From Listeria innocua (lineage in GTDB: Bacteria > Bacillota > Bacilli > Lactobacillales > Listeriaceae): DNA of 64,000 bases. The notes under the pieces were generated by a model. That model was given only the letters and a program-made list of their open reading frames with translations, was not told the origin of the DNA and made no database searches. A program made the position numbers and the translations under genes. Positions 1,365 to 50,554 of this stretch are shown one piece after another (the first letter of the stretch is position 1; each line of letters starts with the position of its first letter). The stretch is from assembly GCF_028596125.1 (NCBI RefSeq), contig NZ_CP117229.1, positions 1,162,001-1,226,000 of the forward strand, in the 5' to 3' direction.

Positions 1365-1526
1365 ATGAAAAAAGGATTTTTTTACGCTATTTTTATTCTC
1401 TTAGTAATAATAGCAAGTACATTATTTGCTCTCAACATCATTTCCAGTGTAGGATGGATGGCTAGTGTTTTTTGTTTAGTGATAGTCGCTATAATATTTA
1501 CGAACATGACAAAAAAACGGACATAA
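1365..1526 (+). CDS. Small hydrophobic membrane protein, 53 aa
   Basis: An ATG at 1365 follows a very strong AGGAGGAGGGAG ribosome binding site and opens a 53-codon frame ending at TAA 1524-1526. The peptide begins MKKGFFYAIF, has two hydrophobic segments (about residues 5-25 and 30-46) and ends in a positively charged tail. This suggests a two-helix membrane peptide with both ends in the cytoplasm. I do not recognise a family. It lies between the tRNA-Arg gene and the large internalin, in the part of the window that looks accessory. A strong terminator follows about 80 bases downstream, supporting a single-gene transcript. Confidence 0.6.
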   Translation: MKKGFFYAIFILLVIIASTLFALNIISSVGWMASVFCLVIVAIIFTNMTKKRT

Positions 1527-1602
1527 CGGAGGGAAAAACGGTTATACTTTAGAGCATTAGATCGTATTAGCAGATGCTCTTAAAACGCTAAACAGTAAAA
1601 TA

Positions 1603-1668
1603 AAAAATCTCTAAAACATTTGAAACCCTTTGTAATTAAAAGGTGAATGTTTTAGAGATTTTTTTATC
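1603..1668 (+). terminator. Intrinsic terminator
   Basis: AAATCTCTAAAACATT pairs with AATGTTTTAGAGATTT across a loop of about 25 bases and is followed by a T-run. It closes the small membrane protein transcript. Confidence 0.8.
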
Positions 1669-2131
1669 TTGCATTTCCCATTTTTATTCCGTTGTTTTTG
1701 TGGCAAATTTTATTAAAACTAGTTCAAGTAATTACGAATCTCATTGGAAGCGAAGAACTACTTTATAAAATAGTCAAAAATTAGGACAAGCAGATTATTG
1801 AGATGATTGATCCTTTACTTTAATAATAATTTTTATGTAAACTCATCCCTTATTAGGTGTTCTATTGTATGACTTGAGAGTAGTTTTTTTGAGAATTTCA
1901 AGCAATAAATTTAAATATATTAGAGAGTCTAAAATTAGTACTAATCCCTAAAAAGATATGAACGATATGTGAACGATGATACCAAGAAATGAAAAAATCT
2001 CTATACTATATTCAAATTACAAGCTTGGGACTGCTATAATTAGTACTTATTGAGGCGATATGATGCCACATACATTAAATACAGAATAAACTCATTCTTT
2101 AAGATAATAATTACATCTAAGGAGACTAATC
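1669..2131. promoter_or_regulatory. Internalin upstream region with candidate promoter
   Basis: No gene is supported here. A candidate SigmaA promoter has -35 TTCAAA (2011-2016), an 18-base spacer and a perfect -10 TATAAT (2035-2040). That leaves an untranslated leader of about 85 bases before the internalin start. No PrfA-box-like palindrome was seen near this promoter. Confidence 0.5.
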
Positions 2132-5100
2132 ATGAAAAGAAAGATAAGTTCTATCATTGTAGTCGGGATAATGCTCTTTCAATCATTAACTATGTATCCA
2201 TTTATCACCGAAGCCAAAGAAAATGAACAAAAAGAAGAAATAAATAAACCCTCAAAAATAACTAAGGGATTAACTAATTCCCTAAAATACACTAAGACAA
2301 TTCTTGAAACAGGGGACACCTATGATAGTGTATTTCCTGACAGTGCTTTAGCTAAAGTAGTTGCTAAAGAAGCAACGGGGTCAGAGAATACAACTCAGCT
2401 AGTAACACAAGCAGACCTGAATAAAATCAAATCTCTCAATGGTTATAATAAAGGAATCAGCGTATTAACAGGAATCGATTTGCTAGTCAATGTGACAAGT
2501 ATAAGCTTGAATAATAATCAAGTAACAGACATTTCTCCAATAGATCAATTACCTAATTTAGTAAGCCTATCGGTAAAAAACAATCAAATTAGCAGTCTTA
2601 TCTTAAATGCGCAAAATCAACTCCCGAAACTAACAACCATTGATATTGAAAATAATCCTGATCTTAATACTATCGATATCCAAGATCAACCCCAATTGGT
2701 AGATGTAAAGACATCCGGTTATACAGGATTACGTAAGTTAACAACGGTAATTGCCAAAAACAATCCAGAATTAGTCAATTTAGGCCAATACACTATCCGA
2801 AATGTCTACTTTAGCCAAGTAGCAAGTTTAACGAAAGTTGAATTAGTCAATCTCCCTAAGGTAAGAAAAGTAGACCTTGAGAGGAACAGTATTAATGAGC
2901 TAAAAGTTACTGATTTGGCTATTGAAGATCTGCCATTAGAAGAAAATGAATTAACAGATACTGTATTCGATAACATCCAAAATCTGCCTAATTTAAAAAC
3001 GTTAGACCTGTCAAAAAACCAACTAGAAGAAGTTGTGTTAGACAAAACGGATGTAGAAAATCTACCCAATTTGATGACATTAGATATACAGCAAAATTTG
3101 GCTATAAAATTGATAAATGTTCAAGATCAACCCCAATTGGTAGATGTAAAGACTTCCGATTATAAAGAATTATCTGCGTTAACAACAGTAATTGCCAAAA
3201 ATAATCCAGAATTAGTTAATTTAGGTTATCCCATTATGCAAAATGTTTACTTTTACCTAGTAGCAAGTTTAACGAAAGTTGAATTAGTCAATCTCCCTAA
3301 GGTAAGAAAAGTAAACCTTGAGAGGAACAGTATTAATGAGCTAAAAGTTACTGATTTGGCTATTGAAGATCTGCCATTAGAAGAAAATGAATTAACAGAT
3401 ACTGTATTCGATAACATCCAAAATCTGCCTAATTTAAAAACGTTAGACCTGTCAAAAAACCAACTAGAAGAAGTTGTGTTAGACAAAACGGATGTAGAAA
3501 ATCTACCCAATTTGATGACATTAGATATACAGCAAAATTTGGCTATAAAATTGATAAATGTTCAAGATCAACCCCAATTGGTAGATGTAAAGACTTCCGA
3601 TTATAAAGAATTATCTGCGTTAACAACAGTAATTGCCAAAAATAATCCAGAATTAGTTAATTTAGGTTATCCCATTATGCAAAATGTTTACTTTAGCCAG
3701 GTGGCAAGTTTAACGAAAGTTGAACTTGCTAACCTTCCAAAAGTAAGAGCAGTTCGATTGGAACGTAATAGCATCAATCAGATTGAACTAAATAATTTAG
3801 TTTCAGTAAAAGACGTGAATCTAAATACTAACAAAATAACAAATGATAGCATAGAGAAATTTAGAGGCATGCCTATACTAGCAACTTTAAATTTAAACAA
3901 AAACCAAATTACCAATATAAATATGCTTGATGGTTTCCCACAAATGACTACTTTAAATATCGATTTAAACTCCATCAGTGTTTTACCAAGTAACCTTAAA
4001 ACAAAAATGCCAAAACTATCGAGAATTAGTGCATTAAATCAAACAGTTACTTTAGGTAAAGCAATTGTAGTGGATGATTCCGATTTAATTATTAATAATG
4101 AGATTAGTAATTTTGAAAAGTTAACCGAGCCAAGCCCAATATCAAATTTTGGAACTTACGCAAATGAAAAAATAACTTGGTCGTCTGAAAGAATAAAAAA
4201 TTTAACAGAGGTCAGCTTTCAGTTTTCTGAGCTAATTAATGTGACTGGTATAGATGGAACTTTTTCAGGAAAAGTAACACAACCATTTAAAAGATCAACT
4301 ACCCCAGTAATTAATGCAGATTCCGAAATTCATTATCCACAAGGGACAGAAAAAACAGAAGCAGAGTTTTTAAAGGATGTTCAAGCGCAAACAACGGATG
4401 ATTTAGCCATTAAAAGCGATTTTGAAACAATGGTGAATCTCAAGAAAGTAGGAAAATACACAGTAACATTAAACGTAGAGAATCTGGATGGAATTAAAGC
4501 TACTCCAAAAGAAGTGATTGTTTATATTGATGCTGTACAAGGTGCAAATATAACTGTGAAATATGAAGACGAATCAGGGAATAAACTTGCGGAAAATAGT
4601 ATACTAACTGGAAATGTCGGTGAAGAATATAGTTCAAGTGCAAAAGAAATTTTAGGTTATACACTAACTGAAATGCCATCAAATGCACAAGGAGAATTTA
4701 GCTTAGAAGAACAGACTGTGACATATATCTATTCGAAAAATCCCGTTCCAGCTAAAGACATCACGGTACAATATACCGATGAGGATGGGATGGAATTAGC
4801 ACCAACCGAAACATTATCAGGTAATGTTGATGAAAATTATGTTACAACAGCGAAGACTTTTACAGGATACGAATTAATTGAAACACCGAGCAATGCAGAA
4901 GGAAAGTTTAGCGAAAATGCACAAACAGTGACCTATGTGTATCGCGCGATTAAAGCAGAGCCAATTTTAGCTAAAGAAGTTACGGTGAACTACCAGGACG
5001 AATTAGGAGCTAAAATTAGTGAAACGGAAGTATTGACTGGTGAAATTGGTGAAACATACACAACAGTGGCTAAAACAATAGATGGCTATACCTTAATTAA

Positions 5101-5845
5101 GAGCCCTACTAACGCTAACGGGATTTTTAACGAGAATCCTCAAACGGTTACCTATGTGTATCAATTACAAAATAGCCCAATAGCAGCAAATATCACCGTT
5201 AAACACTTGGATGAAAACAACAACGAGCTAGCACCAAGTGAGGTACTAAGCGGAAATGTCGATGAAGCATATACAACTAAACCAAAAGAAATAAAAGACT
5301 ATTCGCTAGTAAAAGTACCAACTAATGCTAGCGGAAAATTCACGACAGAAGCACAAACTGTGATTTATCACTATAAAAAGAACAGTATACCGACATCATC
5401 TTATATTACTGTAAAATATGTAGATGAAACAGGGAAAGAGCTGGCCATAAGCAAGGTATTAAACGGAAACATTAATGATTCCTACGCAACTACAGCCAAG
5501 GAAATTAAAGGCTATACGCTAGTGCAAAAGCCCGCTAATGCAACTGGTAAATTTACGGATCAGAATCAAACTATAAAATATGTATATCGTGCTAATAAAG
5601 CCGAAGTAAATCCAAATCCAAATTCAGATGTACTAGGGAGTAATTCCAATGGAGATATTCAACCAACGAATGATATTAAGCCAACAAACGATGTCCAACC
5701 AACAAATGAGGCTCCACAAACCCTACCTAAAACAGGTAGTCAGCCGGCAAATTTGATCTTTGGATTAGGAATTTTACTAGTACTTCTTAGTACCCAATGG
5801 CTACACCGAAATAAAAGAAAAAAAGCTAAATCTCATAACTGCTGA
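2132..5845 (+). CDS. LPXTG-anchored internalin with leucine-rich repeats and five MucBP repeats
   Basis: A 1237-residue surface protein. A signal peptide covers about residues 1-29. An internalin cap and leucine-rich repeats run to about residue 630, with N-P-x-L and I-x-x-L-x-x-x-N repeat features. An Ig-like domain follows (about 726-802), then five MucBP repeats of about 65 residues (about 803-1153), each with an I-T-V-x-Y start and a V-T-Y-x-Y end. A short PTND-rich linker leads to the sortase A signal LPKTG at 1198-1202, a hydrophobic helix and a basic tail. The ATG at 2132 follows AAGGAGA. MucBP repeats are known to bind mucin, so adhesion to host surfaces or mucus is the likely role, but the ligand is unknown. 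The repeat block contains a 147-residue near-identical tandem duplication. The gene sits beside tRNA-Arg and is probably strain-variable. Confidence 0.9.
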   Translation: MKRKISSIIVVGIMLFQSLTMYPFITEAKENEQKEEINKPSKITKGLTNSLKYTKTILETGDTYDSVFPDSALAKVVAKEATGSENTTQLVTQADLNKIKSLNGYNKGISVLTGIDLLVNVTSISLNNNQVTDISPIDQLPNLVSLSVKNNQISSLILNAQNQLPKLTTIDIENNPDLNTIDIQDQPQLVDVKTSGYTGLRKLTTVIAKNNPELVNLGQYTIRNVYFSQVASLTKVELVNLPKVRKVDLERNSINELKVTDLAIEDLPLEENELTDTVFDNIQNLPNLKTLDLSKNQLEEVVLDKTDVENLPNLMTLDIQQNLAIKLINVQDQPQLVDVKTSDYKELSALTTVIAKNNPELVNLGYPIMQNVYFYLVASLTKVELVNLPKVRKVNLERNSINELKVTDLAIEDLPLEENELTDTVFDNIQNLPNLKTLDLSKNQLEEVVLDKTDVENLPNLMTLDIQQNLAIKLINVQDQPQLVDVKTSDYKELSALTTVIAKNNPELVNLGYPIMQNVYFSQVASLTKVELANLPKVRAVRLERNSINQIELNNLVSVKDVNLNTNKITNDSIEKFRGMPILATLNLNKNQITNINMLDGFPQMTTLNIDLNSISVLPSNLKTKMPKLSRISALNQTVTLGKAIVVDDSDLIINNEISNFEKLTEPSPISNFGTYANEKITWSSERIKNLTEVSFQFSELINVTGIDGTFSGKVTQPFKRSTTPVINADSEIHYPQGTEKTEAEFLKDVQAQTTDDLAIKSDFETMVNLKKVGKYTVTLNVENLDGIKATPKEVIVYIDAVQGANITVKYEDESGNKLAENSILTGNVGEEYSSSAKEILGYTLTEMPSNAQGEFSLEEQTVTYIYSKNPVPAKDITVQYTDEDGMELAPTETLSGNVDENYVTTAKTFTGYELIETPSNAEGKFSENAQTVTYVYRAIKAEPILAKEVTVNYQDELGAKISETEVLTGEIGETYTTVAKTIDGYTLIKSPTNANGIFNENPQTVTYVYQLQNSPIAANITVKHLDENNNELAPSEVLSGNVDEAYTTKPKEIKDYSLVKVPTNASGKFTTEAQTVIYHYKKNSIPTSSYITVKYVDETGKELAISKVLNGNINDSYATTAKEIKGYTLVQKPANATGKFTDQNQTIKYVYRANKAEVNPNPNSDVLGSNSNGDIQPTNDIKPTNDVQPTNEAPQTLPKTGSQPANLIFGLGILLVLLSTQWLHRNKRKKAKSHNC
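2681..3740 (+). repeat. Tandem repeat of 441 bp inside the internalin
   Basis: The DNA repeats with a period of exactly 441 bases (147 codons). Copies start at 2821 and 3262, and partial copies extend upstream to about 2681 and downstream past 3703. The two full copies differ at only a few positions, so the duplication looks recent. The period is a multiple of three and keeps the frame. Confidence 0.9.
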
Positions 5846-6087: not shown

Positions 6088-7446
6088 ATGAAAAAAATGC
6101 TACCTGAGAGTAAAGTAGAATCAATAAGAAAAGAAGGATTTTTAAATCGAGCTGTGGAGGCATACCGATTTTTCTATCCAACCGTTTCGAATGTATCAAA
6201 TTTTAAAGCATTACACGATTTAGGAATTACCGAGAATCACGATTTTATTATTCAACTTACGACTCCTGACTTAAATGTACTGACACAAAATTCAGATACC
6301 CCGTATTGTCTTGGAACAGGGAACACAGAGAATGGTCCTGTTGTCATCGAATTACCGCTGGGTGCCATTGTTGGTGTGGCGGATGATATTAATTTTAAAT
6401 TTATTACGAATATGGGATTAACAGGGGATGAAGAAGGTAAAGGTGCCAAGTATTTATATCTTCCTCCTAATTATGACGGGGATATTCCAGAAGGATACAT
6501 AGTTCGCAAACCATCTAGTTTTAGGTTTTTAATTTGTTTACGGGCGATGGTCCACCAAGCAAGTGATTATGAAAAAGCATTTGAGTTACTAAAAACAGTA
6601 AAATTTTATCCGCTAAAAGAAGCAAAAAATAATCCAACCAGTACTTTCCATGATTTTTCTCATCGTAAAGCCATTTCAACACCTTATTATGTTGAAGGAA
6701 AATTCGATTATTGGGAAGTAATCAAATGGGCGCTGGATAATGATGAAACAGATCCAGAATATTACCAAATGTATGGCTTACTAAAAGCAATTGGACTGGC
6801 TCCAAATAAAGAATTTAATCCTGATTCAGACACAAAAGCATTGTTAATTGAAGCTGCCGAAAAAGCAGATAAGATGATGTTTGTGAATTCCTTTAATACA
6901 GATGATCCTGCAGCCATTGTTTGGCCAGGGAAAAATTGGGAATGGGCTGTATACGGTGAGAATAATGACTTCTATGAAAAAACGTATTTAAACCTTCCTG
7001 TAAGAGAGCGCTGGTTCTATCAAGCGACACTCGAAACACACATGATGTTTATGCATAAAGTCGGATTTGGTTCCGTTTATATGCTTGGGGTGAAAGATAA
7101 AGAAGGAAACTATCTGGATGGGGGTAAAAGTTATACATTAAAAGTGCCAACACCAGTACCAACGAGCATTTTCTGGTCGGTAACGGTTTATGAGATGGAT
7201 ACTCGTTCGGAAATTGTTACCGAGCAGTTTATGCCTGCACTTAATTCAATCAAAGATACCTTTGAAGCTGATGCAGATGGCAATACAACGCTTTACTTTG
7301 GACCAAATCCACCAGAAGATGAGTCGCTACCTTGGATTCAAACTGTTCCTGATGCCAATTGGTTCACGTACTTCCGTATTTACGGACCAACTGAACCAGC
7401 ATTTGACAATAGCTGGCAACTATATGATTTTGAAGAAGTTAAATAA
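6088..7446 (+). CDS. DUF1254/DUF1214 domain protein
   Basis: A 452-residue protein that fits the DUF1254 plus DUF1214 architecture. The N-terminal half has a Y-R-F-F-Y-P start and an N-S-D-T-P-Y segment near residue 73. The C-terminal half has F-W-S-V-T-V-Y and Y-F-G-P-N-P-P-E motifs typical of DUF1214. The family is often described as VPA0450-like or murein-lipoprotein-like, but no activity is established. The ATG at 6088 is preferred over the upstream TTG because AAGGAGGA lies 8 bases before it. No signal peptide is visible. It is a single gene between two terminators. Confidence 0.75.
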   Translation: MKKMLPESKVESIRKEGFLNRAVEAYRFFYPTVSNVSNFKALHDLGITENHDFIIQLTTPDLNVLTQNSDTPYCLGTGNTENGPVVIELPLGAIVGVADDINFKFITNMGLTGDEEGKGAKYLYLPPNYDGDIPEGYIVRKPSSFRFLICLRAMVHQASDYEKAFELLKTVKFYPLKEAKNNPTSTFHDFSHRKAISTPYYVEGKFDYWEVIKWALDNDETDPEYYQMYGLLKAIGLAPNKEFNPDSDTKALLIEAAEKADKMMFVNSFNTDDPAAIVWPGKNWEWAVYGENNDFYEKTYLNLPVRERWFYQATLETHMMFMHKVGFGSVYMLGVKDKEGNYLDGGKSYTLKVPTPVPTSIFWSVTVYEMDTRSEIVTEQFMPALNSIKDTFEADADGNTTLYFGPNPPEDESLPWIQTVPDANWFTYFRIYGPTEPAFDNSWQLYDFEEVK

Positions 7447-7448
7447 AT

Positions 7449-7487
7449 AAAAAGAGGCGTAACTTTTAATAGTTGCGCCTCTTTTTA
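7449..7487. terminator. Bidirectional terminator between convergent genes
   Basis: AAAGAGGCGTAACT pairs with AGTTGCGCCTCTTT, with A- and T-runs on either side. It serves the DUF1254 gene and the convergent YdeI-like gene. Confidence 0.85.
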
Positions 7488-8081
7488 TTAATCATTAAGT
7501 CCTAATCCATCTAAAATCGTTGCTTCATATTTCTCAATGCGCGAAACACGCGTTTTTGATTGCTTTGGAGCCGCAAAATAAAGCAAGTACGCTTTTTGGC
7601 GACCAGGAGTTAACGCTTCAAAAGCTGTTTTTAAAGCAGGTAATTCCTCAAATTTCACAAGTAACTCTTCTGGAATAGGCGTTTCCGCTCTTGGTTTAAG
7701 CGCTACTTCTAAACCAGCTTTTTCAACTTCGATTGCATTTTGAATATATTTTTTTAAAATCTCTTTTTGATCAAGAATTTCTTGTAAATTAGTAAAGCGG
7801 ATTTGCCTAGCAGCTTGCACATTTTCTGTTTGTTGCACTAAAATATTGTCCGGATCACGGAGTAGTGCGCCTTTCATAAATAACAGGGCACAGTAGTTTT
7901 TAAAACCATGAATTAAGAAAACGTTGCTGCCATTAATAGCATAACAAGGTTTTCCCCATTTAAATTCTTCTTCTAGTTCAAATGTGATAGCCATTTCTCT
8001 TAATGCTTTGAATTCAGCTTGCCAGGTAGAAGGTTTATTAAGGAACGAATCTACTTTGGGATTTAATTCTGTCTTTGCCAT
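7488..8081 (-). CDS. YdeI/OmdA-type DUF1801 protein
   Basis: A 197-residue cytoplasmic protein. The N-terminal two thirds match the DUF1801 (YdhG/YdeI) fold: W-G-K-P-C-Y near residue 42, then F-x-x-x-C-A-L-L-F-M-K-G near 60. The C-terminal L-T-P-G-R-Q-K-A-Y segment with A-x-x-x-x-T-R-x-x-R-I matches the YdeI/OmpD-associated (OmdA) domain. The biochemical role is unknown; relatives have been linked to stress or peptide resistance. The ATG at 8081 follows AAGAGG and is preferred over an upstream start that lacks a ribosome binding site. Confidence 0.75.
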   Translation of the reverse strand: MAKTELNPKVDSFLNKPSTWQAEFKALREMAITFELEEEFKWGKPCYAINGSNVFLIHGFKNYCALLFMKGALLRDPDNILVQQTENVQAARQIRFTNLQEILDQKEILKKYIQNAIEVEKAGLEVALKPRAETPIPEELLVKFEELPALKTAFEALTPGRQKAYLLYFAAPKQSKTRVSRIEKYEATILDGLGLND

Positions 8082-8198
8082 AAAGAATACCTCTTTTCTA
8101 ATCTTAAATATGTGCTGTTTTACCTCGTACAAATATGCTTTTTTAGGACAAAATGACTTAAAGAAAGAACCTGAAACTTATCCCAGGTTCTTTTGCTT

Positions 8199-8606
8199 TT
8201 AGGATAGATTAAGCTGCCAACCAATACCAAACTTATCAGTAACTTGACCATATTTTTCTGACCAAAATGTTTTTCCGAGTGGCATAATAATATTGCCGCC
8301 TTCCGCAAGTTGATGGAATTGTTTTGTCAGTTTTATTTCGTCCGTTGTATCGATAACGAGTGTGATATTGTCTCCAAATGTAAGTGGCATAGACTTCGGC
8401 ACATCGGAAAACATGACTTTTACTCCATCGAGTACTAAACTAGCATTCATTACTAAATCTTTTAGCGAATCTTCTATAGGTTCTTCAGCGGACTCGATTT
8501 CCCCATATGTCATCAAATCTGTACACTTTGTTCCAAAAATTTCTTCATAAAACGCGATAGCATCTCTGGATTGTGTTCTAAAATTCAAGTAAACATTTAA
8601 CGTCAT
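8199..8606 (-). CDS. VOC-fold (glyoxalase/PhnB-like) protein
   Basis: A 135-residue protein with the paired beta-alpha-beta-beta-beta modules of the vicinal-oxygen-chelate superfamily. It opens MTLNVYLNF with R-D-A-I-A-F-Y-E-E-I-F-G, and ends in W-S-E-K-Y-G-Q-V-T-D-K-F-G-I-G-W, the signature of the PhnB/YjdN group. The group has no established catalytic role. The start at 8606 follows CGAGGAGGAATTC; longer reading frames upstream overlap the next promoter and lack a binding site. It is divergent from the phosphatase gene at 8771. Confidence 0.8.
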   Translation of the reverse strand: MTLNVYLNFRTQSRDAIAFYEEIFGTKCTDLMTYGEIESAEEPIEDSLKDLVMNASLVLDGVKVMFSDVPKSMPLTFGDNITLVIDTTDEIKLTKQFHQLAEGGNIIMPLGKTFWSEKYGQVTDKFGIGWQLNLS

Positions 8607-8770
8607 TTGAATTCCTCCTCGATTTTTATTCGCTATAGTTCTATTCATTTTGGTGTATTTATTATAGCAGATACTGCGTGAAAGAGGAAAAATTAAGAAG
8701 ATAAATACTTGACTTGGAGCTACTCCAGGGTGATAAACTAAAGAGAAGATATAGATTCGGAGGAATTTAG

Positions 8771-9370
8771 ATGAAAAAGACATTATATTTAATGCGCCAC
8801 GGTCAAACTTTATTTAACCAACGCAAAAAAATTCAAGGATTTTGCGATGCCCCACTTACCGACCTCGGGATTAAACAAGCAAAAATCGCTGGGAGTTACT
8901 TTAAAGAAAATAATATAACATTCGATCAAGTTTACAGTTCCACATCAGAGCGCGCATGTGACACGTTAGAGCTGATTACGGACAAAAGCTATCAACGGTT
9001 GAAAGGTTTGAAAGAATGGAATTTTGGTGCTTTTGAAGGCGAGAGCGAAGACCTGAACCCACCACTACCATATGGAGATTTTTTTGCCGAGTATGGGGGA
9101 GAGCGAGAAGTAGATTTCAGAGACCGTTTAGTAACAACAATGGAACGTATCATGAGCCAAGATAACCATGATACTGTCCTCGCTGTTTCCCACGGAGCAG
9201 CCTGTGCTCAATTTGCCAGATATTGGGAAAAAACAAGCAAAATTGGCAAAGTAACAGGACTGAAAAATTGCTGCATTCTGAAGTTTGAATATGAAAACGG
9301 TAGATTTACTTTAGTTAATTTTATTAATCATGATTTTGAGAATGGGACGCATATGGAAAGTGTTAAATAA
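8771..9370 (+). CDS. Histidine phosphatase (phosphoglycerate-mutase family)
   Basis: A 199-residue member of the histidine phosphatase superfamily. The catalytic L-M-R-H-G-Q-T motif sits near residue 7, a second conserved arginine lies in S-T-S-E-R-A near 55, and V-S-H-G-A near 139 carries the second histidine. The substrate is not predictable; related Listeria and Bacillus enzymes act on sugar phosphates or act as broad phosphatases. The ATG at 8771 follows CGGAGGA. The last bases of the gene (from 9333) are duplicated 2.4 kb downstream as part of the repeat flanking the LXG cassette. Confidence 0.85.
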   Translation: MKKTLYLMRHGQTLFNQRKKIQGFCDAPLTDLGIKQAKIAGSYFKENNITFDQVYSSTSERACDTLELITDKSYQRLKGLKEWNFGAFEGESEDLNPPLPYGDFFAEYGGEREVDFRDRLVTTMERIMSQDNHDTVLAVSHGAACAQFARYWEKTSKIGKVTGLKNCCILKFEYENGRFTLVNFINHDFENGTHMESVK

Positions 9371-9414
9371 ACAACTCATGAACGTTAGGTTTTATACGAA
9401 AGACAATATAGTTA

Positions 9415-9443
9415 GAAGAGGTGCAAATTAGCATCTCTTTTTG
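9415..9443 (+). terminator. Intrinsic terminator within left repeat
   Basis: AGAGGTGC pairs with GCATCTCT across a six-base loop and is followed by T5. It ends the phosphatase transcript. Confidence 0.8.
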
Positions 9444-9492
9444 TATACAATTGTTCTTGTTTTAAAAATTTTTCAACTTTTTCAACAATCTA

Positions 9493-9521
9493 TTGCGCCG
9501 TTTTTCACAATTCGATATAAT
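9493..9521 (+). promoter_or_regulatory. SigmaA promoter of the LXG operon
   Basis: -35 TTGCGC (9493-9498), 17-base spacer, perfect -10 TATAAT (9516-9521). The same promoter is duplicated at 11883-11911. Confidence 0.75.
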
Positions 9522-9565
9522 TATTATTGAGTGAATACAATATTACACATAAGAAGGTGGAAAGA

Positions 9566-9928
9566 ATGTCAAAATATGATGCTGAAATTGTTAATGCACA
9601 ACAATCCATCACCGGACAACAAGAAAAAATACGAAGATTAAAAGAACTTATCACAAAAATAGAAAGAAAAGGTGAACAGATTAGTTCCATACCTATTCGC
9701 CAAATCGATTTACCATTTGATTTTTGGCAAGGTAAATCTGATAGTGTCATGAGAGAAGTACTTCAAAGGCGACTTCAATTTTGGAATAATCAAAATGCTG
9801 TAGTGAATGACCTTGTACAGGAATTGCGCGCAGCGATGACTAAAATGCAAAATCAGATAAGTGATTATCAAGCGGATATTAGCTACTATACAAATTTAAA
9901 ACAAATGGAGGAAGAAGTAAATGTCTGA
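9566..9928 (+). CDS. Small helical LXG partner, DUF5082/YwqH-like
   Basis: A 120-residue, almost wholly alpha-helical, charged protein with no signal peptide or membrane segment. It has a central F-D-F-W-Q-G-K-S motif (about residues 51-58), a W-x-G type turn between two long helices as in WXG100-like proteins. Size, fold and position match DUF5082 (YwqH-like) proteins, the first gene of Bacillus ywqHIJ LXG operons. Such proteins are thought to bind the LXG domain and help present the toxin to the type VII (Ess/Yuk) secretion machine. The ATG at 9566 follows AAGGTGG. It overlaps the next gene by 8 bases. Confidence 0.7.
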   Translation: MSKYDAEIVNAQQSITGQQEKIRRLKELITKIERKGEQISSIPIRQIDLPFDFWQGKSDSVMREVLQRRLQFWNNQNAVVNDLVQELRAAMTKMQNQISDYQADISYYTNLKQMEEEVNV

Positions 9929-10196
9929 TATACAAGTAAATGAATCACAAATAATTAAAAGTATGAATCAATTTGCTGGTAAGCAAAAAGTACTTTATAA
10001 AAAATCTTCCTCTACTTCCCATAATAATAAACTAGCTACATATCATAAAATACAAACTATATTAACAAAAATGGATACTCAAATGAATCAATTACAGCAG
10101 TTAGGCGAGCGAACGACACAAGACATAGAGAAGAATTGTGCTGAATTCGTTAACTTAGATAAAAATCTATTAACTGATATTGAAGTAACGGGGTGA
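9921..10196 (+). CDS. Small helical LXG partner, DUF5344/YwqI-like
   Basis: A 91-residue helical protein that starts inside the previous gene. It is rich in K, Q and N, has no cysteine-based or membrane features, and ends in a helix with C-A-E-F-V-N-L-D-K. Position and size match the DUF5344 (YwqI-like) second partner of LXG operons, but the family match is judged by context more than by motif. The ribosome binding site GGAGGAAG lies in the end of the upstream gene, so the two are probably translationally coupled. It likely forms a helical complex with the LXG domain of the next protein. Confidence 0.6.
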   Translation: MSDIQVNESQIIKSMNQFAGKQKVLYKKSSSTSHNNKLATYHKIQTILTKMDTQMNQLQQLGERTTQDIEKNCAEFVNLDKNLLTDIEVTG

Positions 10197-10203
10197 TTGT
10201 AAA

Positions 10204-11664
10204 ATGAAGATAGATGTCAGAGAATTAAATGAGATAGTTAGCGAGAATATAGTAATGCTTAAGAAAGAGTATGAAAATTTAAATATAGCAATGAACGCTA
10301 CAACCAATTTCACAGTAGAAACTCAGGAATTTTTTAAAGGAAAAACAGCAGATGCAAGTCGTGCTTATCTACAAGAGGCATATAAACCTGTACAACAAAA
10401 AACGCTAGAAGTTAATAAATTGATGACAAAAATATTGAGCGAATATATTGCAGATGCCGAGGCACAGTTCGGAGCAAATGGTATGATAGATATTCAATCT
10501 ATTGTAATGGAATACAAGCGCAGTTTTAATCAAGTTAGTGATGATGAAATGAGAGAATACCGCGATTTGAATAATCTTATTCAAGAGGCAAACGAATTTA
10601 CTTACTTTCAGTCGAGTAATTTAGGTTTTTTTGAAGAATTGCATCATGATGCTTTAACAGAAATAACAAATATTCGCATGAAACTAGAAGACTTTGAAAC
10701 CAAATGGAATGTTGAACTTAGTAAAGCTGAAAAATTACAAAAAGAGCTTGATTGGATGTTAACACAAGTTAATGATAATAAAATAATTCCAACAAGCTAT
10801 CAAGCCGGAACGCTCCCATTCGGTAAGCCATTTAAATCACGAGATGAGTTTGATACAGTGCAAGAATATTACCAATATGTCGTTGAATGGGCAGTGGCAA
10901 ATGGTAAAGCGAAAGAAATCATTGTTGATGGGCAAAGATATTATGAGTTTACCGATACTTTTTATTATGAAAATTATAATAAGGAAGTCAATGGAACATT
11001 AGTTATGACAGAAGTAAATGGAGAAATGATATTATTTGTACAACGTAAAGATATAGAGAGTGCAGTTTCTGTTCCTTTTGGAGTATTTTACCCAGATCCA
11101 TTTCAAAGGCTAGCAAATGGAGGAGAAACAGATGGAACTATAAAATTATATCACTGGAAGAGCAAAGATATACCAGAAGGACTAAGTGTTCCAAACGAAG
11201 AATTAAAGGCTATGGCAGATTTCTTCGCAGATACACAGAATAGTTATGATGCAGGTATGGCTATATTAAAATATTTGGCTCATAACAAAAATCCTGAAAA
11301 GCTATCATTTACAGATACAGAATTAGATAAAGTTGCAACGAATTGGTCTGGCGGTAAAAATAGATTTGACTTTGCAGGTGAAGTTGAGGCGCATGCTGAT
11401 ATGCTTACTGATTCAATACTAACAGAACTTGCCGCGAAGCCAATGGATAAAATTGATAGACCTGGTAATACAGATGAAGAGAAGGAGCAAGGATATTATC
11501 ACGCAGCTTCAATAGCTGATATGCAAAAAGGAGAAGATGGAATGATGAACAAAAGTTTTAATTCGATTTGGGGTTCTGGCCAATATTCAGCTTATCTTCA
11601 AAACCTTATGCATGGACAAGAGAATACGCCGAAAGCTAAAAAGAGAAGTTTCCCACGCCAATAA
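10204..11664 (+). CDS. LXG-domain protein, putative type VII-secreted effector
   Basis: A 486-residue protein. Residues 1 to about 215 are helical and fit the LXG domain, including F-F-K-G-K-T-A-D-A near residue 45, where LXG proteins carry their L-x-G turn. No classical signal peptide is present, as expected for type VII export. The C-terminal region (about 215-486) begins with F-G-K-P-F-K and a Y-Y-E-F-T-D strand region. It carries H-A-D-M-L-T-D and ends in a Y-Y-H-A-A segment and a basic K-K-R-S-F-P-R-Q tail. I do not recognise its toxin fold. The two upstream small proteins form the usual helper pair. No clear immunity gene follows directly; the next frame is a broken two-TM protein 320 bases away. 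Toxin activity is inference. Confidence 0.75.
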   Translation: MKIDVRELNEIVSENIVMLKKEYENLNIAMNATTNFTVETQEFFKGKTADASRAYLQEAYKPVQQKTLEVNKLMTKILSEYIADAEAQFGANGMIDIQSIVMEYKRSFNQVSDDEMREYRDLNNLIQEANEFTYFQSSNLGFFEELHHDALTEITNIRMKLEDFETKWNVELSKAEKLQKELDWMLTQVNDNKIIPTSYQAGTLPFGKPFKSRDEFDTVQEYYQYVVEWAVANGKAKEIIVDGQRYYEFTDTFYYENYNKEVNGTLVMTEVNGEMILFVQRKDIESAVSVPFGVFYPDPFQRLANGGETDGTIKLYHWKSKDIPEGLSVPNEELKAMADFFADTQNSYDAGMAILKYLAHNKNPEKLSFTDTELDKVATNWSGGKNRFDFAGEVEAHADMLTDSILTELAAKPMDKIDRPGNTDEEKEQGYYHAASIADMQKGEDGMMNKSFNSIWGSGQYSAYLQNLMHGQENTPKAKKRSFPRQ

Positions 11665-11814
11665 TTTTTTATAAATACTAGTAGTGATTTACAATGTAAT
11701 AATCATAAAAAGCTAGTTACTATTAATAAGTAATTCCTTTCAAAATTTGAGAATGGAAAGCACTAAATAAAAAAACGTAAACATTAGGTTTTTTTATGAA
11801 AGAATATATAGTTA

Positions 11815-11843
11815 GAAGAGGTGCAAATTTGCATCTCTTTTTG
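11815..11843 (+). terminator. Intrinsic terminator within right repeat
   Basis: AGAGGTGCAAATTTGCATCTCT followed by T-run; the stem is one pair longer than in the left copy. It ends the LXG operon. Confidence 0.8.
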
Positions 11844-11882
11844 TATACAATTATTCTTACTTTAGAATTTTCCAACAAGCCA

Positions 11883-11911
11883 TTGCGCCGTTTTTCACAA
11901 TTCGATATAAT
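11883..11911 (+). promoter_or_regulatory. SigmaA promoter, duplicate of the LXG promoter
   Basis: -35 TTGCGC (11883-11888), 17-base spacer, -10 TATAAT (11906-11911), identical to the promoter at 9493-9521. It would drive the broken membrane protein gene. Confidence 0.7.
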
Positions 11912-11984
11912 TATTATTGAGTGAATACAAAATTACACCTCAATTTTTAAGAACGTAAATGAAAGAATACTGAATGGGTGAATT

Positions 11985-12655
11985 ATGAATAATAAGCTAA
12001 AATTTATTTTAAAAACACTATTAGGGGTGTTTTTACTATCTCTTTCTATGTATCTTTTTTTAGCTCAATTCAGCAAATTAGTTGGCTAGAAAATAGTAGT
12101 ATGGAAGATAGAACACGGTACTTTTTACAAAGGAAATTTAATGATGATTGGAAAGATATCTCCCCGAACTTAGCATTTGATTTCAATGTTGAAAGTGGTC
12201 GAAATAAATTAATGACAGCGCATTTTGATATATCCGCGCAAGTCGAAAATAGAAAAGATGATTTACACACATTTAAAACTAAAAAGAAAAGTGAGTTCAG
12301 TAAACTTATTACATTTGATATCGAAGTAATTAAAAATGTAAAAGCAAGTACTAAAATTGAAAAGAAGCAGACAGTATATATACATCCATTACCTGTAAAA
12401 GAGAACAATGAAATTTATACACTTCAGTTTTCTAATAATATGTATCAACCCAATCGAAAAATGGAAAAAGGATTAGACATACGGTCATCAGATGTGGTTG
12501 ATAGCGTAATTTCTTCTCAGAAAAAGTATCAACTTTTACTTGAGCAGATCACAACAAAAGAATTATCAAGCAAAAAACTAACAAAGAATATTATACTTTT
12601 ACTTAGCATTTTGGTTTTGGGAGCTTATGCATATTTAATAATTATTAAAAAGTAG
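11985..12655 (+). pseudogene. Two-TM protein gene interrupted by a frameshift in a T7 tract
   Basis: An ATG at 11985 opens MNNKLKFILK and a hydrophobic helix but stops after 34 codons. The frame that then continues runs to 12655. The switch falls at seven T residues (12055-12061). One extra T would join the parts into a 223-residue protein with an N-terminal membrane helix, a polar charged middle of about 150 residues and a C-terminal helix (about 199-220) ending in two lysines. As written, only a 184-residue product from ATG 12101 could be made, and that ATG lacks a good binding site. No family recognised. Its place after an LXG operon makes a membrane-bound immunity or accessory protein possible. 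A sequencing error, slippage switching or true decay cannot be told apart here. Confidence 0.65.
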
Positions 12656-12699
12656 AAAAAGCGCAGTACACCAAGCGGGCTCAGTGTACTGCGCTTTTT
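12656..12699. terminator. Bidirectional terminator
   Basis: AAAAAGCGCAGTACAC pairs with GTGTACTGCGCTTTTT. It separates two convergent genes. Confidence 0.9.
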
Positions 12700-12702
12700 C
12701 AT

Positions 12703-12963
12703 TTATTGAAACAAATTCTTTATTTTATCCAAAAACCCACCAGTTAACTCATTCGCAGTATCTTGCAAGTTTTCCGTAAGTCCGCTCGCTTTATCTTGCA
12801 GATTTTCCGTTAGGTTTGTCGCTTCATTCTGTAAATTTTCCGTGACATTACTTGCTTGTTCGCCAAGCTCAGATGCTTTGGTTGTTGCCTCTTCTGTCAG
12901 TGTTCCTAGATTTTCCAGGGGCAGGGACTCGGTAACTTTATTCTTCAAATCATCTAAATTCAT
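12703..12963 (-). CDS. Small amphipathic-helix protein with 11-residue repeats
   Basis: An 86-residue soluble protein made almost wholly of 11-residue repeats of the form T-E-N-L-Q-x-x-A-x-x-L (about residues 38-75), preceded by a T-K-A-S-E-L-G-E-Q version. This periodicity gives an amphipathic helix like that of LEA or YtxH-tail-like stress proteins. There is no signal peptide, cysteine or membrane helix. The ATG at 12963 follows AAGGAGGAAAC; the upstream in-frame starts lack a binding site. It is divergent from the helicase gene. A stress or surface-association role is inference only. Confidence 0.65.
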   Translation of the reverse strand: MNLDDLKNKVTESLPLENLGTLTEEATTKASELGEQASNVTENLQNEATNLTENLQDKASGLTENLQDTANELTGGFLDKIKNLFQ

Positions 12964-13086
12964 TGTTTCCTCCTTATTTTGGAAGCTTAGAGTCCATTTT
13001 AAAGGAAGTAGGAGCGAAGTACAAACAATTCGTTCCGTCATTTGTGAAAAAATATGGTATGATGATATGAGGAAATGAGGACTGAC

Positions 13087-14499
13087 ATGAATAATTTAAA
13101 ATTAAGTGAAGAAATTAAAAGAGCCATTAATGAACTAGGATATAAAGAAGCTACCCCTGTTCAAAAAGCAGTAATTCCAGTTGCCTTAACAGGAGAAGAT
13201 ATTGTTGCTAAATCACAAACTGGTAGCGGGAAAACAGCAGCATTTGCGATTCCAATTGCAGAACAGGTTGTTTGGGAAGAAAACAAACCACAAGCGCTAA
13301 TTATCGTACCAACGAGAGAACTTGCAATGCAGGTTAAGACAGAATGTACGAATATTGGACGATTTAAACGAATTAAAGCAGCAGCAATATATGGACAATC
13401 ACCTTTTGCTAAACAAAAATTAGAATTAAGTCAAAAAAACCATATTGTTGTTGGAACGCCGGGGCGATTACTGGATCATATCGAAAAAGGATCACTTAAT
13501 GTCGATAAAGTAGCCCATTTAGTTTTAGATGAAGTAGACGAAATGTTAAGCATGGGCTTTATTGACCAAGTAGAAGATATTCTTAGCCGTTTACCAAAAC
13601 AGCGTCAAAACTTATTTTTCTCAGCGACATTACCTGAAGAAATGCAAGATTTAATTAAACGCTATCAAGATAATCCAATGGTAATTGAAATGGCTTCTGA
13701 AAAAACAAATCCAATTTTTCATGTGGAAATGCAAACGGATAATAAAGAAAAAACGTTAAAAGATGTTTTAATTACTGAAAATCCTGACAGTGCAATTATT
13801 TTTTGCAATACGAAAAATCAAGTCGATGAACTCACCGATTTACTCGATGTAAAAGCTAGTAAAATTCATGGCGGTTTAAGACAAGAAGATCGTTTCCGCG
13901 CTATGGATGATTTCAAAAGCGGAAAATCACGTTTCTTAATTGCGACAGATGTAGCCGGTCGAGGAATTGATGTTGATAATGTCTCGCTTGTAATTAATTA
14001 CGATTTACCAATTGAAAAAGAGAACTACGTGCACCGAATCGGACGTACTGGCCGTGCTGGAAAAAGTGGAAAAGCTATCAGTTTTGTTAAAACGAATGAA
14101 AATCCGCTTCTTCGTGATATAGAAGAAATGCTAAATATTACGATTGAGAAAAAGCGGAAACCAACTATCATCGAAGTAAAAGCAAATGAAGAAGCTTTCC
14201 GTAAAAAACAACAAAAACGCCCAACCATAAAGAAAGCTCGCGGTGAAAAACTAAATAAAAATATTATGAAACTTTATTTTAACGGTGGTAAAAAGAAAAA
14301 AATCCGTGCGGTAGATTTTGTTGGAACCATTTCTAAATTAGAAGGGATTACAGCGGAAGATATTGGTATTATTACGATTGAAGACCATGTATCCTTTGTC
14401 GAAATTTTAAACGGAAAAGGCCCAGCTGTCCTTGAAATGATGCGCTCACGAAAAGTGAAAGGCAGACGTCTCAAAGTCAACGAAGCAAGAAAACGATAA
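13087..14499 (+). CDS. dbpA: DEAD-box RNA helicase, DbpA/YxiN type
   Basis: A 470-residue ATP-dependent RNA helicase. Visible motifs are the Q motif near T-P-V-Q-K-A, Walker A S-Q-T-G-S-G-K-T (about 47-54), P-T-R-E-L-A, T-P-G-R-L, motif [15 protein letters not shown] and H-R-I-G-R-T-G-R. Motif II reads D-E-V-D (148-151) instead of D-E-A-D. The C-terminal 75 residues match the DbpA RRM-like domain that binds hairpin 92 of 23S rRNA, so a role in 50S ribosome assembly is likely. The ATG at 13087 follows ATGAGG at proper spacing; the ATG 12 bases upstream has no usable site. Confidence 0.85.
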
Positions 14500-48299: not shown

Positions 48300-49172
48300 A
48301 TGATTAAACTAGAAAATGAATTACTACTTGTAGAAATGAAAGAAGCTGGTGCTGAATTAACACGAATTTTCCACAAAGATACTAAGTTAGAGTATTTATG
48401 GAATGCAGATAGTACCTTTTGGGGGCGTCATTCTCCGGTTCTATTCCCGACAGTAGGTAGACTTGTTGAGGATACTTATTTTGTAGATGGTAACCCGTAT
48501 CACTTAGGTCAACACGGCTTTGCGCGTGATCGTGATTTTAAAGTAGTGGAGCACACAGAAAACGCTGTACGCTTTGAACTAGATGCGGATGAAGATTCAT
48601 TAACGATTTATCCGTATAAATTTAAATTATCGATTATTTATACAATAGAAAAAGATTCAGTTGCGGTTTCTTATGAAGTGGAAAATACGGACAATAAGCG
48701 CATCTATTTCTCCATCGGCGCGCATCCAGCCTTTAATTTACCACTTACTGACGGAACTACATTTGAAGATTATTATTTGGATTTTGGAACAGAAGAGAAT
48801 CTCGAAACACTTTGTCTGGAAGGCCCTTATCGCAGTGGTAAAATTGAAAAAGTTGTCAATGAACCAGCAAGATATTTGCCATTAAGCTATGATTTATTTA
48901 AAAATGATGCACTGATTTTTGAAGCATTAAAGCAAAAAGAAATTACGATTAAATCAGACAAAACTCCACATTTTGTAAAAGTGTCATTTCCAGAGTTCCC
49001 GTTTGTTGGGGTTTGGACAGCAAAAGCAGGAACGCCTTTCTTATGTATCGAACCTTGGTACGGAATTGCAGATGGTGCTGGAAAATCGGTTGAGCTTCGA
49101 GATAAAGCAGGTATTGAACATCTAGAACCAGAAGCAGTTTTCGCTTCTGAATATAAAATTACTATTGGTTAA
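48300..49172 (+). CDS. Aldose 1-epimerase family protein, LacX-like
   Basis: A 290-residue beta-sandwich protein of the galactose mutarotase superfamily. The family marks are S-P-V-L-F-P-T-V-G near 43, G-Q-H-G-F-A-R-D near 66, H-P-A-F-N near 142 and C-I-E-P-W-Y-G near 255. The LacX group is found with sugar genes, and the substrate is unknown. The ATG at 48300 follows TTGGAGGAG. Confidence 0.83.
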   Translation: MIKLENELLLVEMKEAGAELTRIFHKDTKLEYLWNADSTFWGRHSPVLFPTVGRLVEDTYFVDGNPYHLGQHGFARDRDFKVVEHTENAVRFELDADEDSLTIYPYKFKLSIIYTIEKDSVAVSYEVENTDNKRIYFSIGAHPAFNLPLTDGTTFEDYYLDFGTEENLETLCLEGPYRSGKIEKVVNEPARYLPLSYDLFKNDALIFEALKQKEITIKSDKTPHFVKVSFPEFPFVGVWTAKAGTPFLCIEPWYGIADGAGKSVELRDKAGIEHLEPEAVFASEYKITIG

Positions 49173-49175
49173 AAT

Positions 49176-49214
49176 AAAAACCCAGCAGAGCTAAATAGCT
49201 CTGCTGGGTTTTTA
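49176..49214. terminator. Bidirectional terminator
   Basis: AAAAACCCAGCAGAGCTA pairs with TAGCTCTGCTGGGTTTTT; a strong stem between convergent genes. Confidence 0.92.
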
Positions 49215-49811
49215 TTACATCCATTTTATTTTTGGTTCTTCGCCGTTTCGAATGCGCGTAATATTTGCTCGGTGGCGCCAAATAACAAAGAGAGCGATGC
49301 AAGCAACGAGGATAATTAAAATCCAGTCTCCCATGAAAAAAGAAATAATTAATGCTGCAAGTGCTCCAATCATTGAACTAAGCGACACATATTTGCTGAT
49401 TTTTAATGTTAATAAGAAAACGACTAGTGCTGCTACAAACAAAAGTGGTGCATAAGCAAGGATAACACCAGCAGAAGTAGCAACTGCTTTCCCACCTCTG
49501 AATCCTGCGAAAAGCGGGAAACTATGTCCGATAATCGCAAATGCTCCCGTAAGTAACCAGAAATGATGATTAACATTTAGTTGGAAAAAGAATGGAAGTA
49601 ATGTTGCGACAGTACCTTTTAAAATATCCATCACTGTAACAATACTGCCCGCTTTTACCCCTAAAACACGGAAGGAGTTTGTAGCTCCTAAATTTCCGCT
49701 ACCAAAATCACGAATATCTTTTTTGTAAAAAATTTTACCGATCCATAAGCCAGAAGGTATTGAACCGATTACATAAGCTAACAAAGAAAGCAGAATTAAA
49801 TTAATAGTCAT
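49215..49811 (-). CDS. plsY: Glycerol-3-phosphate acyltransferase PlsY
   Basis: A 198-residue membrane enzyme with five or so helices that transfers an acyl group from acyl phosphate to glycerol-3-phosphate, the first step of phospholipid synthesis. Conserved motifs are G-S-I-P-S-G near residue 16, G-S-G-N-L-G-A-T-N near 37, and G-H-S-F-P-L-F with F-R-G-G-K near 95. The ATG at 49811 follows GAGGGG. It matches Bacillus yneS in position, here on the opposite strand to its neighbours. Confidence 0.94.
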
Positions 49812-49968
49812 TTTTAAACCCCTCAAGAAGAAATGATGTTTTCCATAAAGAATTATAGCATAAAAAAAAGATTTTTGGCTAAATTGTTCCGATAAAACAC
49901 GATGAAAAGTTGAAAAAACCGCAAAAATAGCTTATGATTAGAAAGAATAGTAGGGGGCGATTAGACTA

Positions 49969-50379
49969 ATGCAAAATCCAACAAAAGAGGAAATAGCGCA
50001 TATTTTAAGAGAAGCAAAAGTAATCGCAGTCGTTGGTTTGAGTGATAAACCAGACCGCACAAGTTACCGAGTAAGCCAAATCATGCAACAAGCTGGGTAT
50101 AAAATTATTCCAGTAAATCCTAATGCAAATGAAATTCTTGGAGAAAAAGCTGTAAAGAGATTAACTGACATTAAAGAACACGTTGATATTGTGAATGTTT
50201 TCCGTCGCTCGGAATTTTTACCAGACATAGCGCGGGAATTCGACCAAATAGACGCAGACGTGTTTTGGGCACAACTTGGCATTGTTAATCAGGAAGCATT
50301 TGATTTTTTGACAGAAAAAGGATATTCTACTGTCATGGATTATTGCATTAAGGTTGCTTATCAAGAAATGGATTACTAA
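49969..50379 (+). CDS. CoA-binding protein, YneT-like
   Basis: A 136-residue protein with a CoA-binding Rossmann-like domain: V-I-A-V-V-G-L-S-D-K near residue 17, Y-R-V-S-Q and I-I-P-V-N-P-N near 45, and D-I-V-N-V-F-R near 69. Single-domain proteins of this kind are common, and their role is unknown. The ATG at 49969 follows GTAGGGGGC. It lies between plsY and parE as does Bacillus yneT. Confidence 0.85.
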   Translation: MQNPTKEEIAHILREAKVIAVVGLSDKPDRTSYRVSQIMQQAGYKIIPVNPNANEILGEKAVKRLTDIKEHVDIVNVFRRSEFLPDIAREFDQIDADVFWAQLGIVNQEAFDFLTEKGYSTVMDYCIKVAYQEMDY

Positions 50380-50396
50380 CAACCATTTTTGAAAGA

Positions 50397-50427
50397 AGCA
50401 GGTTCTTATAGCAGAGCCTGTTTTTTT
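50397..50427 (+). terminator. Intrinsic terminator
   Basis: GCAGGTTCT pairs with AGAGCCTGT (one wobble) followed by T7. Confidence 0.8.
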
Positions 50428-50554
50428 ATGAAAAAGAATTTGTCACCAAACTATCACTTTATTAATTAGCTGGTTAATGCTATTCTGATAAGGTGGTTTT
50501 AAGCGAAGAACAACGTAAAGTTGCAGATTGATGGAATGAAGGGAGTTTTGAAAT

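Follow-up and report, generated by a model that had tools for sequence, protein, structure and literature searches.

Two stacked LXG cassettes as a probable record of type VII secretion toxin replacement in Listeria innocua

A 64,000-nucleotide stretch of a Listeria innocua genome (contig NZ_CP117229.1, positions 1,162,001 to 1,226,000; here called the window, and the source of all unprefixed coordinates below) carries a gene for an LXG-domain protein, here named toxA, between a histidine phosphatase gene and a gene for an 11-mer-repeat protein. This gene and two small helper genes are bounded by direct repeats of about 200 bp, and the question raised by the locus is what these repeats are, since a preliminary description of the sequence had seen in them the means by which a single cassette was gained or amplified. 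The repeats are best read not as a duplication made at insertion but as the heads of two different cassettes, each consisting of a hairpin terminator and a promoter following a phosphatase 3′ end. The explanation which we consider likely as a whole is that two cassettes of the type VIIb secretion system (T7SSb) stand here in tandem, with the toxA cassette in front and a gutted cassette of another toxin gene, toxB, behind it, of which the promoter and a damaged immunity gene are left. Part of this explanation is that the gap between the phosphatase and 11-mer-repeat genes is a docking place for T7SSb LXG cassettes, and that these have a fixed plan, consisting of terminator, promoter, two small helper genes, LXG toxin gene and immunity gene. 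Understood in this way, the locus adds a clear case to a known evolutionary process, and is not a new kind of element.

The two repeats are imperfect direct copies. Their alignment covers most of the length and includes an 11-nt gap within the phosphatase trace, further gaps towards the middle, ungapped blocks of 82 nt (88% identity) and 78 nt (91% identity), and a longest identical run of 49 nt (starting at 9492 and 11882, respectively). A whole-genome search with positions 9333–9570 found the right copy (E = 1.3e-53, 83% identity over query positions 21–216) and no third copy at E 0.001, which excludes chance. The preliminary description was right about their composition and contents: the left copy includes the true 3′ end of the phosphatase gene (stop codon at 9368–9370) and the right copy a trace of the same end, both have a strong hairpin running into a series of Ts and the motif TTGCGC followed after 17 nt by a TATAAT box, and an LXG gene lies between them together with two small genes. 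The hairpins and the promoter of the window heads were absent from the output of a generic consensus scan. Four heads, picked by similarity to those in the window, were aligned: the two window heads, the one at the phosphatase site of genome G003, and one at the argF gene (named by eye from the sequence) of G003. All four have the TATAAT box with its 17-nt spacer, and a hairpin in which changed stem letters still pair (the shuffle test was run on the two window hairpins only, and the stretch 5′ of helper 1 in G008 was not among the heads compared).

The repeats are taken as heads of their own cassettes because G003 has a complete cassette with a single head at the same site: one head, two helper genes, a different LXG toxin gene (toxB, 522 amino acids), and an intact immunity gene of 229 amino acids which overlaps the toxB stop codon, and of which the hydrophobic ends, judged by eye, suggest a membrane protein. 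The C-terminal parts of toxA and toxB can be aligned over their first 13 residues only. Behind the right head of the window come the terminal ~53 nt of toxB, and after them a homologue of the G003 immunity gene with a frameshift, from which it follows that the toxA cassette precedes a second cassette with its helper and toxin genes deleted. The toxB–immunity pair is also found in G010 (toxB domain 64% identical, immunity protein 44%), and the protein encoded by the larger piece of the window gene (12101–12655) is 81% identical to that of the intact G003 gene and 44% to that of the G010 gene; no relative of this piece was found in viral contigs. Because its relatives are located directly downstream of toxB in both G003 and G010 (by position), 11985–12655 is predicted by association to be the toxB immunity gene, orphaned in the window. 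If the cassettes have an antibacterial function, as we presume, the orphan gene would be a defence against rivals that carry toxB, and its frameshift suggests that such protection is now lost or weak. At argF of G003 (G003:C1:1337863–1340943), a head and the first 35 codons of helper 1 are joined directly to a frameshifted gene of the immunity family; to judge from the sequence, helper and toxin genes have been lost here a second time, while the head and the immunity gene have stayed.

Two observations on these genes stand apart from the above. In G010 the toxB-type domain and its immunity gene lie at a different site (G010:C9, ~49000–51000), where the LXG end is shortened and the helper region broken. 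Where the window immunity gene is frameshifted (12054–12062), the zero frame passes a T-run ending in TTA and the downstream piece continues in the −1 frame; such a run has the form of a slippery heptamer, a form that is frequent by chance.

We searched 25 Listeria genomes, and treated as comparable sites the 15 in which matches above the cut-offs were obtained for the phosphatase as well as for the helicase next to the site; this leaves out G004, G008 and G010 (phosphatase match of 56–60% identity, no helicase match at the cut-off) and seven further genomes with no phosphatase match at the cut-off. Only two of the 15 sites are occupied, i.e. those of the window genome (3.7 kb between the matches) and of G003 (3.5 kb), and in the 13 empty ones the flanking matches are 407–435 bp apart. 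This supports the proposal of the preliminary description that the cassette was acquired here, with recombination involved, but not the role given there to the repeats as cause or scar of the gain, nor the expectation that cassette-free genomes hold a single repeat copy formed by fusion. When the 13 empty genomes were searched with the repeat, four gave the phosphatase end only and nine gave nothing, while alignment of a head with the empty gap was no better than with shuffled sequence in all 13, and hence the empty sites are not products of repeat fusion. Loss of the cassette through the repeats, also put forward earlier, is possible in principle with 49 identical nucleotides, but no genome examined shows the product.

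Two candidate origins of the repeats were tried and rejected. Against target-site duplication by a mobile element, there is no head in the empty sites, and no recombinase or transposase among the five scanned proteins of 9566–12655 (other open reading frames (ORFs) there, of 51–112 amino acids, were not scanned). Against recent amplification in place, the copies differ by 9–17% and lead different cassettes; an old duplication of the head is possible. A search for a phage origin gave no DNA match of 9333–11938 in phages. As a separate observation, the phosphatase gene in G020 has an LXG gene (G020:C1:1177982–1178557) some 5 kb upstream of it.

Table 1. Features of the phosphatase to 11-mer-repeat region, in window coordinates.
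Feature	Position	Strand	Evidence or remark
Left flank with phosphatase gene, a recombination tract of L. monocytogenes type	8430..9377		class-specific sites
Histidine phosphatase superfamily gene, 199 amino acids	8771..9370	+	PF00300, E = 1.3e-37; groups with L. monocytogenes-type genomes
Left repeat: phosphatase 3′ end and toxA cassette head	9333..9548	+	repeat alignment
Terminator-like hairpin, toxA head	9414..9441	+	−13.9 kcal/mol, z −5.15 vs shuffles
Promoter of toxA head, TTGCGC-17-TATAAT	9493..9521	+	comparison of four heads
Small helper 1, weakly YwqH-like, 120 amino acids	9566..9928	+	PF16888, E = 1.4e-4, 22.6 bits vs cut-off 33.7; 75% identical in G003
Small helper 2, DUF5344-like, 91 amino acids	9921..10196	+	PF17279, E = 1.5e-5, 25.9 bits vs cut-off 27
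LXG-domain gene toxA, 486 amino acids, open frame	10204..11664	+	PF04740, E = 7.7e-13, 49.2 bits vs cut-off 26.5
78-nt spacer after toxA	11665..11742		no ORF of at least 50 amino acids inside
Right repeat: phosphatase-end relic (11-nt gap) and second cassette head	11743..11938	+	repeat alignment
Terminator-like hairpin, second head	11814..11841	+	−14.8 kcal/mol, z −4.48 vs shuffles
Promoter of second head, TTGCGC-17-TATAAT	11883..11911	+	head comparison, 49-nt identical run
3′ tip of deleted toxB, overlapping immunity start	11940..11992	+	alignment with 3′ end of toxB and start of immunity gene in G003
Orphan immunity-like gene (immB homologue), frameshifted	11985..12655	+	pieces 11985–12089 and 12101–12655; hydrophobic ends (by eye)
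Terminator-like inverted repeat between converging genes	12655..12700		repeat search and consensus scan
Right flank, probable end of imported tract	12660..12850		monocytogenes-specific 3/3, farberi-specific 0/14 sites
11-mer-repeat protein gene, right neighbour	12703..12963	-	ORF list and profile search

With regard to the toxA cassette itself (Table 1), its three frames are open, and the two small genes upstream of the LXG gene are found in the same order in G003 and G008, with family matches that are weak and below the cut-offs. The spacer behind toxA has, outside the window genome, just 13–14 nt matches among the loci compared. The C-terminal part of the toxA product was matched in a single one of 395 genomes of the order, which is its own (the collections used contain a single genome for each species, and may lack records close to the window), and had no relative in plasmids; the full-length protein had none in viral contigs or the PDB. 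Pfam gave the LXG domain only, NCBIfam nothing better than E 0.08 and PADLOC nothing, and the single-sequence fold prediction was poor (mean predicted local distance difference test score 39). The genome contains the T7SSb ATPase EssC (TIGR03928, 1949.7 bits vs a cut-off of 778.4) and six LXG matches, which together make secretion possible. In Bacillus subtilis, the ywqH-ywqI-ywqJ-ywqK genes encode two small helpers, an LXG toxin and an immunity protein, in that order; set against this, toxA lacks the fourth gene.

The flanks of the block suggest how it reached this genome. Here the preliminary description had the species wrong, as it took the DNA to be from L. monocytogenes: the genome is L. 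innocua-like, and the genome most similar to it in the helicase and transporter genes is G005, which stands for L. farberi (93–94% identity, vs 87–88% for G016–G019). For the analysis of class-specific sites, G016–G019, which form one clade and which we take to be L. monocytogenes, were used as the monocytogenes-type class, and G002, G003, G015 and G022 as the marthii/cossartiae-type class; G024 was aligned and kept out of the classes, and the bins 8390–8690 and 12850–13100 were kept out of the background counts. Within 8430–9377 the window has the monocytogenes-specific base at 41/42 sites (background 35/170, Fisher P = 1.6e-21) and the farberi-specific base at 3/54 (background 215/426, Fisher P = 1.3e-11), where the P values are a guide only as the sites are linked. 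The tree of 8481–9370 places the window on the monocytogenes-type side (support 1.0), conflicting with the helicase, transporter and upstream trees, in which it groups with G005 (0.99–1.0), and this flank differs from G019 by ~2%. To the right of the orphan gene, the site counts for 12660–12850 given in Table 1 (P = 0.01 for the monocytogenes-specific and 1e-4 for the farberi-specific bases) probably mark the end of the tract, and in 12850–13100 the farberi-specific bases return (4/7). As ~0.95 kb to the left of the cassettes is of L. monocytogenes type, and a further ~0.2 kb to their right probably is as well, the block likely came by cross-species recombination, most likely by homologous recombination through the phosphatase side, and a single imported block of ~4.4 kb would be the simplest reading.

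The history which we propose would start with the toxB cassette as the first at this site. An internal deletion, beginning just after the promoter and sparing only the final ~53 nt of toxB, would have placed the toxB immunity gene behind the cassette promoter while keeping the start and ribosome-binding region of this gene; because the head carries both terminator and promoter, such a deletion of helpers and toxin leaves the immunity gene with a promoter ready in place. The toxA cassette was probably stacked in front of the older cassette, anchored in shared upstream sequence, for which the monocytogenes-type tract at 8430–9377 is present and may have served, and a non-homologous right junction near 11742 would have closed this step. 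Transfer of the block into the L. innocua-like host would have followed. The data fit the deletion either before or after the stacking. The phosphatase relic in the right copy looks monocytogenes-like by eye, which would fit stacking before import.

A number of points weigh against this history. The genomes examined have neither a toxA cassette together with an intact toxB cassette, nor a head with the orphan gene alone, at this site. No cognate immunity gene lies directly 3′ of toxA, where 78 nt (searched for ORFs of at least 50 amino acids) are followed by the second head, and the toxic nature of the toxA product is deduced from its LXG domain only, because the C-terminal domain is without relatives and its predicted fold poor. 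Both orphan immunity genes, in the window and at argF of G003, are frameshifted, which makes strong present selection for keeping them doubtful. The type of the right flank, and with it the right end of a single block, is probable on few sites (3 and 14), and the background upstream is mixed, as 6890–7490 leans to the L. monocytogenes type (monocytogenes-specific 9/14, farberi-specific 2/30) and G016 (90.8%) and G005 (90.5%) are equally close to the window over 7001–8200, so that several imports may lie here. Finally, identity between the two window heads (83%) exceeds that between the left window head and the head of G003 (75%), which makes an older duplication of the head within the lineage possible. 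The same similarity would suit an origin of the repeats by a single insertion that duplicated a ~200-bp target, or a role for them in amplifying and deleting the cassette by unequal recombination, since they do flank the cassette and their identical 49-nt core could serve recombination. We nevertheless think this improbable, as no trace of a head is left in any of the 13 empty sites, a full cassette goes with one head in G003, the copies have diverged far more than the imported flank has from G019 (9–17% vs ~2%), and the right copy stops just where the toxB tip starts.

It is similarly hard to believe that the second promoter is part of a functional design in which 11985–12655 provides immunity to toxA and is made even with the toxin operon off. 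This gene is the sole immunity-like gene adjoining toxA, and the two promoters share the 49-nt core, but its frame is broken, the toxB tip is in front of it, its relatives in G003 and G010 are directly behind toxB, and toxA and toxB do not align in their C-terminal parts beyond the 13 residues mentioned. More weight can be given to decay, although this too seems less likely than not: immunity would have been lost at the right junction, toxA would be non-toxic or unexpressed, and the site would be a graveyard of cassettes. The lack of an immunity gene in 11665–11742 and the frameshift in the neighbouring one fit with this, whereas the three open frames of the toxA cassette, the retained hairpin and promoter, and the presence of EssC do not. 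Decay of this kind is compatible with the explanation by tandem cassettes.

The process that the tandem cassettes most resemble, by analogy, is the displacement of effectors in Vibrio type VI secretion system (T6SS) clusters, where, in the model proposed, incoming modules displace the old effector while its immunity gene stays, resulting in arrays of orphans, and homology-facilitated illegitimate recombination may be used (PMC5361080). The likeness consists of a new module in front, an old toxin lost and an old immunity gene behind, and of a proposed upstream homologous anchor with an illegitimate junction (PMC5361080). In the window, moreover, a toxB remnant precedes the orphan gene, of which the relatives adjoin the toxin elsewhere (by position, in G003 and G010). 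Unlike in Vibrio, here the system is T7SSb with LXG proteins, the site is chromosomal and outside the secretion locus, and the incoming module has brought a toxin gene but no immunity gene of its own (PMC5361080). Each window cassette also has its own terminator and promoter, unlike in the Vibrio T6SS, and the orphan gene thus keeps a promoter.

Closer to home, chromosomal LXG hotspots, 14 of them external to ess, and orphan immunity genes are known in L. monocytogenes (PMC10327511). The window site is like those hotspots, in which an occupied site generally has one LXG gene with one or two small helical partners, a role for which the two helper genes here are candidates, and toxA is unlike the new LXG proteins reported there, each of which adjoins a probable immunity gene (PMC10327511). 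Similar to the tandem T7SS immunity paralogues known to recombine (PMC9484751), the immunity genes at our site would be shaped by recombination, but those are strings of related genes and here a single orphan gene appears to have been left by deletion. We found neither this site nor remnants of head plus immunity gene described in the open-licence literature, as far as its accessible text goes.

What makes the window of wider interest is that it seems to hold an unusually readable fossil record of T7SS toxin replacement, in the form of an old head, the last toxB codons, an orphan immunity gene and a new toxin gene, all within a stretch that appears to have passed from one Listeria species to another. 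It offers a way to test the Vibrio displacement model in Gram-positive bacteria, and draws attention to a toxin-like gene with no immunity gene beside it. Whether gutted cassettes of head plus immunity gene, as at the phosphatase site and at argF of G003, are a recurrent, selectable route from toxin modules to stand-alone immunity units, which then move from species to species behind newer toxins stacked upstream, is a broader proposal that we make tentatively, and which taken together we hold to be rather unlikely.

Elsewhere in the window, positions 1500–5500 (with an internalin-like gene at 2132–5845) are mostly 92–100% identical to the L. monocytogenes-type genomes G017 and G019, and no match was found in the L. 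farberi stretch compared, which spans only part of this region. This suggests that 1500–5500 is likely to be another cross-species import.

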